This document shows positions 29,407 to 34,350 of a DNA stretch of 34,876 nt, one piece after another. Within the stretch, counting starts at the first letter, position 1; every line of letters starts with the position of its first letter. The translations under genes and the position numbers were made by a program. Source of the stretch: Candidatus Methanofastidiosia archaeon (GTDB taxonomy: Archaea; Methanobacteriota_B; Thermococci; Methanofastidiosales; Methanofastidiosaceae); contig JAAZKM010000005.1 of NCBI GenBank assembly GCA_012799835.1, positions 1 to 34,876 of the forward strand, given 5' to 3'. The notes beneath the pieces are model-generated. The model was not told where the DNA came from, searched no databases, and saw only the letters and a list, made by a program, of their open reading frames with translations.

Positions 29407-30357
29407 ATGTGTAAATCTAAAATTTATATGGACGTTTTTGATGTTGCAATTCTTGGGGGAGGTCCCGCTGGAATTTCAGCTGGGATATATGCTGCAAGAT
29501 TCAAATTAAATGCAGTTGTTATATCTAATTCATTGGGGGGCACTGCACAGTCTGCACATCTCATAGAAAATTATCCTGGGCATAGCGCTATTTCAGGTTT
29601 TGAGTTAATGCAGAAATTTAAAAGTCATATGAAAAGTTTTGAAGTTCCCGTAATTGAAAAACATGTGCATTCTGCCAGTAAGGAAAATGACTTCTTTAAG
29701 ATAAAACTATCAGACGAGGAAGTTAAAGCACGATACATTCTCATTGCAACAGGCACAAAAAGAAGAAAATTAGGTGTTCCTGGAGAAGCAAGGTTTTATG
29801 GAAAAGGTGTGAGCTACTGCGTTACTTGTGATGCATTTTTTTACAGAGATAAAACCGTGGCTGTTGTGGGGGGAAGTGATGCCGCAAATATGGCAGCCAT
29901 TCTTCTATCTTCAATGGCTAAGAAAGTTTATGTTATCTACCGGAAAGATAAGTTAAGGGGAGAATTAGTCTGGATTGAAAGAGTAATTACAAATCCCAAA
30001 ATTGAAGTTTTGTACGAATCTAATGTTGTTGAGATTAAAGGCAAGGACTTTGTTGAAGGAGTAAAGTTAGAGGATGGTAGAGAGATACCTTTAGACGGGG
30101 TATTTGTAGAAATCGGATCGATACCAGAATGTTGTTGTGCTAGCGATTTGGGTATCGAAATTAACCAAAAAGGATACATTCAGGTCGATTCTTCTCAAAA
30201 AACAAATGTAGACAGAGTCTATGCTGCAGGGGACGTGACATCTGGATCTAATGGATTGCAGCAAATTGTCACTGCCGCAAGTGAAGGCGCTATTGCGATA
30301 AAAAGTATTTTCGATGATATAGAAAGATCTAAGGTGACATTATGGAAAAAGGATTGA
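29407..30357 (+). CDS. trxB: Thioredoxin reductase-like flavoprotein
   Basis: This enzyme passes electrons from a pyridine nucleotide or other donor through FAD and a Cys pair to thioredoxin-like proteins. The 316-residue frame shows the FAD motif DVAILGGGPAGISAG, the redox pair CVTC in SYCVTCDAFFY, GGSDAANMAAILL at the nucleotide site, and YAAGDVTSGSNGLQQIV at the C-terminal FAD site. The NADPH-phosphate motif HRRxxxR is replaced by IYRKDKLRGE, so NADPH specificity is doubtful. ATG 29407 is about eleven bases after the predicted transcript start; ATG 29428 (MDVFDVAIL) fits the family N-terminus as well. Its end overlaps the next gene. Confidence 0.9.
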   Translation: MCKSKIYMDVFDVAILGGGPAGISAGIYAARFKLNAVVISNSLGGTAQSAHLIENYPGHSAISGFELMQKFKSHMKSFEVPVIEKHVHSASKENDFFKIKLSDEEVKARYILIATGTKRRKLGVPGEARFYGKGVSYCVTCDAFFYRDKTVAVVGGSDAANMAAILLSSMAKKVYVIYRKDKLRGELVWIERVITNPKIEVLYESNVVEIKGKDFVEGVKLEDGREIPLDGVFVEIGSIPECCCASDLGIEINQKGYIQVDSSQKTNVDRVYAAGDVTSGSNGLQQIVTAASEGAIAIKSIFDDIERSKVTLWKKD

Positions 30358-31064
30358 AATTAACTATTTTCAGTTTATTATTAATAGTTACTTTATTATT
30401 TGCAGGTTGTAACGAATCTAGTACAGATAAAGTTCTTTCTGAATCAGATAAAGTAGAAATAAAAAAATTATTTAGTGATATGGATGGAAAAGTAGAGCTA
30501 TTATTATTTACTTCTCAATTGGGATGTTATAGTTGTTCAAAAACTGAAACTCTCATGAAAGAGATTGATGGGCTTTCAGATAAAATTTCCCTTAAAACAT
30601 ATGACAGAGAAAAGAATGAGCAAATTGCAGCAAAATATAATATTGAATTAGTTCCGGCTGTAGTTATAGTTGGGAAAGAAAATTATGGGATTAAGCAATA
30701 CGGATTTCCTGGGGGGAGGGAGATTATGCCTTTCCTTGAAGCAATTAAAAACTCGTCAATGGAGAAACCAGTTCTATCTAATGAAATCTCCAAAAAAATA
30801 GATACAATGGCTAGTCCAGTTGAAGTAAAGATATTTATCACCTCGACTTGCCCTTATTGTCCTGATATGGTCAGGGGTGCAAATTACTATGCACTGGCTT
30901 CTGAAAAGGTATCCGCTGTTACCATAATGTCAAATGAATTTGATGAATACAGTAAAAAATATAAAATAAATTCAGTTCCCACGATAATATTCAATGAAAA
31001 GGTCAAGAGAGAGGGGCAAATGTCAGAAGAGGCTTTTGTTAACTATCTTGTTACTTCATCATAG
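30342..31064 (+). CDS. Lipid-anchored protein with two thioredoxin folds (PDO-like)
   Basis: A 240-residue protein with a signal peptide and lipobox LFAGC, lipidation at Cys23. Two thioredoxin/glutaredoxin-like modules follow: the first with CYSC (Cys62, Cys65) and cis-Pro105 in LVPA, the second with CPYC (Cys170, Cys173) and cis-Pro203 in SVPT. This is the architecture of archaeal protein disulfide oxidoreductase, but exported and membrane-anchored, while known PDOs are cytoplasmic. The ATG lies inside the 3' end of trxB with AAGGTGA five bases ahead, so it is translationally coupled to the reductase. It probably makes, reduces or isomerises disulfides outside the membrane, or relays electrons. 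Confidence 0.85.
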   Translation: MEKGLKLTIFSLLLIVTLLFAGCNESSTDKVLSESDKVEIKKLFSDMDGKVELLLFTSQLGCYSCSKTETLMKEIDGLSDKISLKTYDREKNEQIAAKYNIELVPAVVIVGKENYGIKQYGFPGGREIMPFLEAIKNSSMEKPVLSNEISKKIDTMASPVEVKIFITSTCPYCPDMVRGANYYALASEKVSAVTIMSNEFDEYSKKYKINSVPTIIFNEKVKREGQMSEEAFVNYLVTSS

Positions 31065-31073
31065 AGGGATAAA

Positions 31074-31700
31074 ATGAGAAAAATTTTGATGTTCATTGTA
31101 GTGGCATTGATATTATTTGCCGGTTGTGCTTCCAAGCCAAATACCGGCACAAATGGTAATCCAGATAATACAAATTCATCAGATACCCTATACCAACAAA
31201 TAGAAAAAGAAGCCATCTGCCCTTGTAGTACTTTTTTCAATCTTAAAGAATGTAAGCAATACTTCCCAGATTGCCCCTACACACCTATTTTGGATTCCAC
31301 TATAAACAACATGATTTCTGAGGGTAAATCAAAAAAAGATATTCTTGATGCCGCCGAACGGTATAATAACGGCATAATTGAAGGTAAATTGAATGATTTT
31401 AGGGGGTCACAGAATAAAGGTAGAGTGATCTTACTATACTTTGAATCTTCACTTTGTGAAATATGCCATGAGAAAAAGCCAGTATTAAAAGAGATAGAAG
31501 AAAAATATAGGGGAAGGATAGATATTTACAAGTTTGACAGGATAAATGATGGAGTCATATTCGATTACTTTATTGTCGATAGAATTCCCAGTATAATATT
31601 CTTTGATGGCAAGACTAGATTAAATGAAGTTCCTTTTAATAATGTTAGTGTCGAGGGGATTAGTTCGTTACTAGATTTTACTTTAGATAAAAAGAAATAA
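31074..31700 (+). CDS. Lipoprotein with a Cys-rich module and a thioredoxin fold
   Basis: A 208-residue protein with signal peptide and lipobox LFAGC (Cys18). After a Thr/Asn/Gly/Pro linker comes a Cys-rich segment with CPC (Cys49, Cys51), Cys60 and Cys67, followed by DSTINNMISEGKSKKDILDAAERY. That arrangement recalls the CcmH-type heme-handling domain (a Cys motif, then helices with MxxxIxEGxSxxEI), but the motif spacing differs. The C-terminal half is a thioredoxin fold with CEIC (Cys128, Cys131) and cis-Pro172 in RIPS. It lies nine bases after the previous gene and belongs to the same transcript. The CcmH comparison is tentative. Confidence 0.75.
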   Translation: MRKILMFIVVALILFAGCASKPNTGTNGNPDNTNSSDTLYQQIEKEAICPCSTFFNLKECKQYFPDCPYTPILDSTINNMISEGKSKKDILDAAERYNNGIIEGKLNDFRGSQNKGRVILLYFESSLCEICHEKKPVLKEIEEKYRGRIDIYKFDRINDGVIFDYFIVDRIPSIIFFDGKTRLNEVPFNNVSVEGISSLLDFTLDKKK

Positions 31701-31725
31701 GCAACAATGGTTGATACCCAAATAC

Positions 31726-31758
31726 TTTTAAATATCACTATTGTTAATAGGATGTGAT
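31726..31758 (+). promoter_or_regulatory. Internal promoter ahead of the signal-anchored thioredoxin gene
   Basis: CTTTTAAATATC at 31725-31736 gives a TATA box whose predicted start is near 31756. GTGAT (about 31755-31759), four bases ahead of ATG 31763, is the ribosome site. This splits the redox cluster into two transcription units. Confidence 0.5.
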
Positions 31759-31762
31759 AAAG

Positions 31763-32269
31763 ATGAAGGTATCTAGTATTGTCGCCTTTATTCTGGCCTT
31801 TGTACTTCTTATTTCTGGAATTTATGGACTCGATATAGGGCCAGTTTCAATTGAAAGCCGCCAATATGAACAATCAAAGCAAATTGGCTCTTATATTTGC
31901 TTATCTTGTATTGGATTGACGGGAAGCAAAGTCAGTCATACTTTAACAGAGGACACCCTTAATAGACTAAAAAAGATTGATTATCCTGTAAAAGTGTGGA
32001 TTTTCACTTCAAATGATTGCCCTACATGTCCTGATGCAAAGGCCATAATACTAAATTTCACATTAGAAAATTCTAATATTACCTATGAAGAAATAAGGCT
32101 TGAAACACAGGGACAATTCTTTGATACATATGCTGTATCGGAACTTCCTACACTCATTTTTTTCAATAAGGATGGTATTGTTTTAAGAAAGGATAATTTT
32201 GTTCATAAAGTTGTGGGGATAGACAACCTTCAAAAGAAAGTAATCGAAGCAATTGAAATGGTGAGTTGA
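31763..32269 (+). CDS. Signal-anchored thioredoxin-fold protein with a second CXXC
   Basis: A 168-residue protein starting at ATG 31763 (the upstream GTG is part of the ribosome site). Residues 4-22 form an N-terminal hydrophobic segment without lipobox, so the protein is anchored or cleaved. Then comes CLSC (Cys46, Cys49) in a short segment before the thioredoxin fold, whose own active site is CPTC (Cys86, Cys89) with cis-Pro129 in ELPT. The stop TGA shares a base with the next ATG. It probably exchanges electrons with the large membrane protein encoded next. The CLSC pair could be an extra relay or a metal site. Confidence 0.8.
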   Translation: MKVSSIVAFILAFVLLISGIYGLDIGPVSIESRQYEQSKQIGSYICLSCIGLTGSKVSHTLTEDTLNRLKKIDYPVKVWIFTSNDCPTCPDAKAIILNFTLENSNITYEEIRLETQGQFFDTYAVSELPTLIFFNKDGIVLRKDNFVHKVVGIDNLQKKVIEAIEMVS

Positions 32270-34350
32270 TGGGTAAAATAAAGCGTATTCGAACTATATC
32301 CCAATCACTTTCTTTAATTATTATAAATCTCGGTTTCCTCGGGATATTTTTTAAACATCTAACTGGGCCCGTTTTCAATTGCTATGCATGTCCATGGGCA
32401 TCTATAAGTTGTCCTATAGGATTGCTGCAGAATTTTGTGATGAACGGTCAAGTTCCGACATACGTATTAGGTACGATGGGGGCAGTATTTGTTTTTGTTG
32501 GTAGCGCATTTTGCGGATGGGTATGCCCATTTGGATTTTTGCAGGACGCAATCACCTTTGTTAAAAGTTTGATTAAGAAGAACAATAAAAAAATAAAAAG
32601 AAAGACCCAAATCAAAAACAAATCAAAGGATTTCTCTTTAATAACAAGATTAGTGGTGCTTTTAGCTATTTTAGTTCTTGCAATAAGGTATGTAGATACA
32701 ATCTTCTGCAAATTGTGTCCAATTGGAACAATAGAAGCAACATTTCCATATCAGATGGCTAATGGATTTTCATATAATATTTGGCTTGGTGCAAGGATAG
32801 TTATTTTAATACTTTTAGTTGTTATGTTTTTTGTAGTCAGTAGATTCTGGTGCAGATACCTTTGCCCAATAGGTGCATTGGCTGGCCCTTCTAACAAAGT
32901 CAGTATTCTTAAATTATTTCATAGCGGAAAAAACTGTGAAGGATGTAGTATCTGTAAAGATGTATGTCCTCTCGATATAGAGGTTGTAGAAGATCCAAAC
33001 TCGACACGCTGCACAAGGTGCGGGGATTGTGTCGATAAGTGCCCTAAAGGCAATCTAGCTTTTGGCCTGGATTTATTTGGATTAGTTACCATTTCACCCT
33101 TTAAAAAGAAAAAAGAGAAAACTCCTGAAAAGAAGCTTGTGACCCCAACTTCCGAAGGCATACCTGGAGTTAATGAAAAACATGCAGATCCAAAAATTAT
33201 CCCTCCAGAGGAAAATGATATTTTGGATGAGTTTAAGTATGGGGAAAAGGGCACTCTTGTTGAAAGACCCGCCTATATGGGATTCAAAAAAGGAGAAAGA
33301 GTTTATTTACCTTACGAGGAGGTAAAGAAAATAGGTATCAGACCGCCTAAAATCTCTCTTCCTGTTCTTTTAAAACAGTATTCTGAGGGGCGTTTGGCTG
33401 AGGATTATGATGCTCCAGAGGCATTTGTTGAAGAGAAGCTAGGAGAGAAATTGAGTGAAACTCCAAAGTCAATCCCAAAAGAAGAAGTTGATAAAAAACA
33501 TTTCGAAAAGTTTAGGGTTCCAAGGAGAACAGAGCTTCATATAGATCATATAAAATATCTAAAAGAACTGGATATCCCAATAGAGGTAAAAGCAATAGCA
33601 AATAATAACAAAGAGATTCCAGCTGTATTGCTTGCGATTATTGATGCGTCTAATCAAATAAACTTTGAATACTTAAACGCTAGAGATCAAAAAGCTGACT
33701 GGTATTACAAGGAGAGATTACCTTCAATATACTTTAATGGGAAATATTACCCTGGTTTATTTTCAGAAGATGAATTAATCTACAAAATAAAGCTAGAACG
33801 GTACATTATTGATAATGTAAGCTTAGTTATAGATTACACAAGATGTATTGGATGCAATAATCAAAGTTGTAAAAAAGTATGCCCTATTTTTAAAAATATC
33901 CCAATCTTAAATGAAGGATACGGTGTTTACCCTCTTTCTAAAATTGGGTGCTCTCTTTGCGGAAAATGTTTGATAGAATGCGACAGAGGCGGAATATCCT
34001 TCATATTTGGAGAAAAGCTTGTGATAGATCCGAATTTCAGCATAGATATGATTAAGAAAAATAAAGAGTTGATTTCTACAATATACCCTGAAACTGTTAT
34101 GCTGTTCCTTGAAAAGAACAAAAAACATTCCAATAGGGCCTTAAATTTCACTATAGCTTTATCATACCTTTCCCATGGCAAACTTTCATATCAAATAATA
34201 GATATTGCCAAAAATCAAGAGGCGGTTTTAAAAAGGAAAATCGGTGCCATCCCCTGCTTCTGGATATCTGAAAAGGTACAAATTTCAGGCATGGTTTCCG
34301 AGGCATCAATTCTTGCATTTATACGAAAGATATCAAAGTGGAAAGGATGA
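32269..34350 (+). CDS. NapH-type polyferredoxin membrane protein fused to two thioredoxin-like modules
   Basis: A 693-residue fusion; numbers are from the preceding in-frame TTG, one more than from ATG. Segments: four membrane helices near 12-31, 66-86, 126-142 and 172-192, with CYACPWASISCP, CGWVCPFG, CKLCPIG and CRYLCPIG motifs of NapH/CcoG proteins; two [4Fe-4S] sites (Cys224/227/230/234 and 249/252/255/259); a charged linker (280-420); a thioredoxin-like module with cis-Pro486 but no Cys pair (435-510); two more cluster motifs (Cys527/530/535/539 and 562/565/568/572); and a second thioredoxin-like module with cis-Pro663 but no Cys pair (610-690). It looks like a membrane electron conduit between cytoplasmic ferredoxin or quinone-like donors and thiol proteins. 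Confidence 0.85.
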   Translation: MGKIKRIRTISQSLSLIIINLGFLGIFFKHLTGPVFNCYACPWASISCPIGLLQNFVMNGQVPTYVLGTMGAVFVFVGSAFCGWVCPFGFLQDAITFVKSLIKKNNKKIKRKTQIKNKSKDFSLITRLVVLLAILVLAIRYVDTIFCKLCPIGTIEATFPYQMANGFSYNIWLGARIVILILLVVMFFVVSRFWCRYLCPIGALAGPSNKVSILKLFHSGKNCEGCSICKDVCPLDIEVVEDPNSTRCTRCGDCVDKCPKGNLAFGLDLFGLVTISPFKKKKEKTPEKKLVTPTSEGIPGVNEKHADPKIIPPEENDILDEFKYGEKGTLVERPAYMGFKKGERVYLPYEEVKKIGIRPPKISLPVLLKQYSEGRLAEDYDAPEAFVEEKLGEKLSETPKSIPKEEVDKKHFEKFRVPRRTELHIDHIKYLKELDIPIEVKAIANNNKEIPAVLLAIIDASNQINFEYLNARDQKADWYYKERLPSIYFNGKYYPGLFSEDELIYKIKLERYIIDNVSLVIDYTRCIGCNNQSCKKVCPIFKNIPILNEGYGVYPLSKIGCSLCGKCLIECDRGGISFIFGEKLVIDPNFSIDMIKKNKELISTIYPETVMLFLEKNKKHSNRALNFTIALSYLSHGKLSYQIIDIAKNQEAVLKRKIGAIPCFWISEKVQISGMVSEASILAFIRKISKWKG

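Follow-up and report, generated by a model that had tools for sequence, protein, structure and literature searches.

A NapH-type iron-sulfur membrane protein encoded with exported thioredoxins in Candidatus Methanofastidiosum and in Bacillota: a candidate outward electron route

The window analysed here is a 34,876-nucleotide stretch of DNA from a Candidatus Methanofastidiosia archaeon (GenBank assembly GCA_012799835.1, contig JAAZKM010000005.1, positions 1 to 34,876), in which five open reading frames on the plus strand, spanning 29407-34350, encode a thioredoxin reductase (TrxB), two lipoproteins with thioredoxin folds (P2 and P3), a membrane-anchored thioredoxin-fold protein (P4) and a NapH-type iron-sulfur membrane protein (P5) (Table 1). 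The genus is Ca. Methanofastidiosum, a methane-producing archaeon, whose name is carried by near-identical loci (94 and 82%). The five genes form an operon that is kept across the genus: the order trxB-P2-P3-P4-P5 is identical in eight of its genomes, and trxB gives a single match per genome in 9/10 (E ≤ 1e-20), the match in one genome (G009) containing two stop codons inside the matched stretch. The P4-P5 pair is adjacent in all four sampled families (f1 to f4) of the order Methanofastidiosales, and the three further families carry it without neighbouring trxB, P2 or P3. P5 orthologues were found in 18 of the 115 genomes of the phylum, every one within the order.

Table 1 Features of the operon, with positions in the window
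Feature	Position	Strand	Evidence
trxB, cytosolic FAD thioredoxin reductase, CxxC C138/C141	29407..30357 (likely start 29428)	+	Pfam/NCBIfam
P2, lipoprotein of the protein disulfide oxidoreductase (PDO) type, two-fold, with CYSC, CPYC and lipobox FAGC	30342..31064	+	TIGR02187, PDB 1a8l, lipobox
P3, lipoprotein, four invariant cysteines then thioredoxin domain with CEIC	31074..31700	+	PF00085, lipobox, alignment
P4, thioredoxin-fold protein with membrane anchor and CPTC active site	31754..32269 (likely start ATG 31763)	+	PF14595, alignment
P4 N-terminal CD1871A-like segment, transmembrane helix and YICLSCIGLT	31763..31921	+	hhalign
P5, NapH-type protein with four transmembrane helices, 694 residues	32266..34350 (likely start ATG 32269, overlaps P4 stop)	+	TIGR02163, Fer4_5
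P5 outer loop 1 motif CYACP...CP (C39, C42, C49)	32380..32412	+	Hydropathy and positive-inside rule
P5 inner CX3CP motif 1, CGWVCP (C83/C87)	32512..32526	+	Invariant in 15 sequences
P5 outer loop 3 motif CKLCP (C148, C151)	32707..32718	+	Predicted outside
P5 inner CX3CP motif 2, CRYLCP (C196/C200)	32851..32865	+	Invariant in 15 sequences
P5 2x[4Fe-4S] ferredoxin domain, 8 cysteines	32935..33042	+	Fer4 Pfam matches
P5 second cysteine-rich domain, 8 cysteines	33844..33981	+	Pfam Fer4_6 at 521-540, cysteine table
P5 degenerate thioredoxin-like domain, CxxC absent, cis-Pro position retained	34033..34347	+	hhalign to PDO C-domain

TrxB was identified by Pyr_redox_2 (E = 7e-50) and by TRX_reduct, its top NCBIfam match (E = 2e-93). 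Since relatives show stops upstream, the true start of trxB is probably 29428 and not 29407. A first-pass annotation of the window had described the reductase as translationally coupled to a PDO lipoprotein, followed by two further exported thioredoxin-fold proteins and a NapH-type polyferredoxin, and this gene inventory was borne out. The trxB and P2 genes overlap by 16 nucleotides, and the P2 lipobox is present in 8/8 genomes. P2 scores over the TIGR02187 cut-off (205.5 versus 185 bits) and, like the Pyrococcus/Thermococcus-type PDO (PDB 1a8l, E = 2.6e-29), has two thioredoxin domains and two CxxC motifs; the lipoprotein signal sets it apart from that type. The PDO of family f4 (L220:906-1586) has no signal peptide, and PDO export may be particular to Ca. 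Methanofastidiosum. P3 carries a lipobox, a thioredoxin domain (PF00085, 27.8 bits; cut-off 23.5) and four cysteines (C49, C51, C60 and C67) invariant in eight sequences. Their spacing had raised the possibility that the four-cysteine domain of P3 (31074-31700) is a CcmH relative, but the Pfam CcmH model matched only 1/8 members, at E = 0.28, and the relation is not claimed.

P4 begins with a transmembrane anchor and matches PF14595 (27.2 bits; cut-off 25). Its cysteines C49, C52, C89 and C92 are invariant in 16 aligned sequences from the four families, and form two pairs: a CxxC right after the transmembrane helix, and the CPTC of the thioredoxin site. The N-terminus aligned to 50 bacterial CD1871A-like proteins with an hhalign probability of 96.8 (E = 2.8e-10), whereas reversed and unrelated signal segments, used as controls, gave at most 17. 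The segment shows the transmembrane helix followed by C-x-x-C-[IL]-G of the CD1871A family (NF040920). The archaeal scores are far under the curated cut-off of 32 bits: the highest is 12.6 bits (E = 0.09), and the P4 segment from the window gave no match. P4 also differs from CD1871A proteins in running on into a thioredoxin domain.

P5 is a NapH/MauN homologue (TIGR02163, E = 1.7e-24; Fer4_5, 64 bits), which lies outside the curated TIGR02163 subfamily by its score (86.7 versus 213 bits). Judged by hydropathy and charge, the N-terminus lies inside, as do the loop joining helices 2 and 3 and everything that follows helix 4. In this predicted topology, P5 resembles NapH/MauN-type ferredoxin proteins (PF12801, TIGR02163), for which transmembrane electron transfer is likewise proposed, in having four transmembrane helices, a pair of inner-face CX3CP motifs and a cytosolic C-terminal 2x[4Fe-4S] ferredoxin domain, whose cysteines are complete (8/8) in all 15 sequences. 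It differs from them in five extra cysteines, located in two predicted outer loops and conserved in families f1 to f3. These conform to a pattern, hereafter outer-Cys, consisting of CxxCP-x(3-10)-CPxG for loop 1 and, for loop 3, either CxxCP or CxxxCP, both predicted outside. This pattern is missing from ordinary NapH proteins, among them the second one encoded in the same genome. The archaeal P5 adds two domains to the NapH/MauN plan. One is the second cysteine-rich domain, with eight cysteines in f1 and f4 and four left in f2 and f3. The other is C-terminal and aligns with the PDO C-domain (hhalign probability 83, E = 8e-6); relatives match PF13192 (best E = 5e-4) and, in genome G020, TIGR02187 (E = 4.8e-5). 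A thioredoxin-like assignment of residues 425-515 was unsupported (hhalign probability 14.5). The outer cysteines, the CD1871A-like segment of P4 and the degenerate C-terminal domain of P5 are additions to the first-pass annotation. Directly upstream of P4/P5, family f3 encodes a membrane protein with cysteines that looks DUF116-like by eye (L037:8984-9655, L041:1164-1835 and L035:2115-2801).

The outer-Cys pattern also occurs in bacteria. Among 399 genomes of one phylum, Bacillota, and one plasmid match, we collected 58 outer-Cys NapH loci, and used 17 NapH loci without the pattern, from other NapH subfamilies, as controls. The outer-Cys NapH set was present in at least 56 of the 399 genomes. 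Of the outer-Cys NapH genes, 50/58 had a CD1871A-like gene, encoding a small transmembrane protein that ends in ICL[ES]CIG, no more than 400 bp away, and of the ordinary ones 0/17 (Fisher, P = 3.6e-11; the control loci are related among themselves, so such P values overstate independence). When TGA codons were read through, a TlpA-type exported thioredoxin was found in the fetched flanks of 46/58 outer-Cys loci, as compared with 0/17 controls. All three genes are carried by Peptoclostridium acidaminophilum, a cultured and non-pathogenic species. In addition, a bacterial clade short of one loop-3 cysteine has no TlpA neighbour, which probably represents one event. In the NapH tree, the archaeal P5 cores form a single clade (100/99) on the outer-Cys side, adjoining a bacterial clade with mostly CLSC CD1871A motifs (90/75), and the controls stand apart (99/98). 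In the archaeal operon, the CD1871A and exported thioredoxin elements are both contained in P4, encoded beside P5. Nothing in the sequences points more strongly to joint work of these parts than this fusion together with their bacterial adjacency. The unit that the first-pass annotation had considered for archaea extends across Methanofastidiosales but is not specific to archaea, since its core is bacterial too.

Taken together, these associations lead us to favour, as the probable though far from certain reading, that P5 is a transmembrane iron-sulfur relay feeding the exported thioredoxins P4, P2 and P3. The donor, the direction of flow, the order of carriers, the binding of clusters and the substrate are given here as we infer them. 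A reduced cytosolic carrier, most likely ferredoxin, would pass electrons to the cytosolic [4Fe-4S] domains of P5, from which they would travel via the inner CX3CP pair and across the four-helix bundle to the outer side. There, the five outer-loop cysteines would form a cluster or a thiol site to receive them. The CD1871A-like CXXC and the thioredoxin CPTC of P4, two pairs that may both exchange electrons, would take them up as a dithiol, and P4 would then reduce the lipid-anchored P2 and P3, which would act on disulfides outside the cell. Candidate purposes are the repair of disulfides in exported proteins or the reduction of small disulfides.

A different assignment of roles is conceivable, in which the exported thioredoxins and CD1871A merely keep the outer cysteines of P5 reduced while its cluster is built, and P5 feeds some other reductase outside. 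Such a helper role would account for the strictness of the linkage and would not require the electrons to end on thioredoxin. However, no other recurrent redox enzyme appeared across the 58 bacterial neighbourhoods, where thioredoxin was the commonest neighbour by far (37 loci; the next, 5), and the archaeon has two thioredoxin lipoproteins more than a helper requires. We regard this as the least probable of the alternatives.

The bacterial partners also bear on the direction of the electrons. In 19 of the TlpA-type thioredoxins beside an outer-Cys NapH, an in-frame TGA takes the very place of the first CxxC cysteine (loci L116, L117, L119, L131-L133, L136, L137, L139-L146, L148, L149 and L151), and because of this exact position, these are probably selenoproteins overlooked by ordinary gene calling. 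Were electrons to run inward, P2 to P4 would form or shuffle exported disulfides and P5 would hand the electrons to a cytosolic acceptor, as a substitute for DsbB. VKOR was absent from the 115 phylum genomes (0/115; DsbB, PF02600, lay outside the search), which leaves the oxidant for exported disulfides unaccounted for, and PDO-type proteins are able to oxidise or isomerise. Nevertheless, the reduction of a low-potential ferredoxin from dithiols would be uphill, and the bacterial partners are of the TlpA/ResA type, usually reductants, with probable selenocysteine at the first active-site position in those 19. The oxidative direction is therefore unlikely. The archaeal proteins share export and the CxxC with TlpA/ResA, which adjoins outer-Cys NapH in bacteria and there often has TGA, possibly for selenocysteine, at the first active cysteine; P2 and P4 are nearer to PDO/glutaredoxin-like folds.

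The relay proposed for P5 would share its task, the supply of reducing power to extracytoplasmic thioredoxins, with DsbD/CcdA (PF02683, PF13386). The two have no sequence relation: DsbD/CcdA uses thioredoxin-fed cysteine pairs in the membrane, whereas P5 has iron-sulfur domains. The first-pass annotation had seen no DsbD/CcdA-type transporter and had suggested delivery by iron-sulfur clusters in its place. No CcdA-type membrane domain was found in the archaeal operon neighbourhoods or in the bacterial neighbourhoods of outer-Cys NapH, and the absence holds for the window. It does not hold for the genome. PF02683 gave no match there, but an absence concluded from that model alone was overturned by PF13386, which detected one CcdA-type protein of 501 amino acids away from the operon (L052:5271-6776; G000:C275). 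This exported protein contains two glutaredoxin-like domains and a DsbD_2 domain with Pro-Cys in two transmembrane helices. Searches with PF13386 and with the protein itself located it in most genomes of Ca. Methanofastidiosum; G009, CcdA-free by the Pfam models, proved to have an orthologue in the protein search. In family f2, two Pfam models detected no CcdA in four genomes (69-92% complete, draft assemblies in which an absence is no proof), and the CcdA protein query matched only through its glutaredoxin-like part. Three of these four retain P4-P5, so that constant co-encoding of CcdA, which the first-pass annotation had named as refuting its proposal, was not seen across the order. Family f2 encodes exported three-repeat glutaredoxin-like proteins with CxxC in the first repeat only and a C-terminal transmembrane helix, without a CcdA part (L064:1339-2265 and L066:1501-2424).

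Accordingly, the CcdA-type protein might itself do the work: fed by TrxB and cytosolic thioredoxin, it would reduce P2 to P4, and P5 would be a mere neighbour with another acceptor. The genome gene has both membrane Pro-Cys motifs and orthologues in other genus genomes, a cytosolic WCGPC thioredoxin is encoded, and trxB is coupled to the PDO gene. On the other hand, the CcdA gene is distant from the operon and has no counterpart in the bacterial neighbourhoods, none was found in the four f2 genomes, P4-P5 being kept in three of them, and P4 and P5 are adjacent in every sampled family. We consider this explanation improbable, to about the same degree as an oxidative direction. TrxB has no export signal and therefore cannot reduce the lipoproteins directly, a role that we rejected; in Ca. 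Methanofastidiosum its partner is most likely the cytosolic WCGPC thioredoxin and, by way of it, probably CcdA. Because a CcdA-type protein is encoded elsewhere in the genome, the P5 relay is better read as a route parallel to CcdA in this genus than as its replacement, and the separately encoded protein would be a second way in. What remains of the earlier suggestion is a recurring unit of an iron-sulfur protein and exported thioredoxins, in archaea and Bacillota, with candidate metal or redox cysteines placed by prediction on either side of the membrane; delivery instead of CcdA is not supported for this organism. CcdA/ResA is best known for its part in the assembly of c-type cytochromes. 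In 21 genomes, no protein for such assembly was detected, and cytochrome c maturation was for this reason dropped as a purpose of the operon.

Several observations weigh against the relay, in addition to the CcdA-type protein of the same genome and the relatedness of the control loci. In family f4, P5 (L042:7953-9638 and L043:8541-10226) has lost all five outer cysteines and kept the inner ones, yet P4 with its four cysteines is retained. (The same two genomes encode two PF02683 proteins each.) Twelve of the 58 bacterial loci have no thioredoxin within the fetched flanks. The degenerate domain of P5 has no CxxC and is therefore not a direct redox partner. Structural information is sparse: the AlphaFold model of P5, built from three near-identical sequences, has a pLDDT (per-residue model confidence) of 30, and that of its C-terminal domain one of 50, both too low to be decisive, and no solved structure among the best 60 matches covers the membrane part.

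Where NapH/MauN-type proteins and NapH-like flavinylated systems have cytochrome or FMN-binding partners, P5 and its bacterial relatives adjoin CD1871A and thioredoxin. NapH-like proteins with flavinylated partners were catalogued by Meheust et al. 2021 (PMC8238504), in whose consulted passages thioredoxin partners are not named. We found no published description of a NapH set with CD1871A and thioredoxin, subscription papers being outside the scope of the search.

The delivery of reducing power to the outside of anaerobes is mostly explained by DsbD/CcdA, cytochromes and flavinylated proteins. NapH-like conduits are already known, and the thioredoxin-linked outer-Cys form suggests an undescribed outward electron route for thiol chemistry. 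More broadly, it is possible, though we put this tentatively, that outer-Cys NapH and CD1871A constitute a general CcdA-independent conduit by which exported thioredoxins, probable selenoproteins among them, receive electrons from cytosolic ferredoxin in anaerobic Bacillota and Methanofastidiosales, with iron-sulfur chemistry inside and thiol chemistry outside. If this is correct, exported thioredoxins would have one more type of feeder, a low-potential iron-sulfur one found in a bacterial phylum and an archaeal order, and the tiny, named but unexplained CD1871A family would gain a function, as would unexplained NapH variants.

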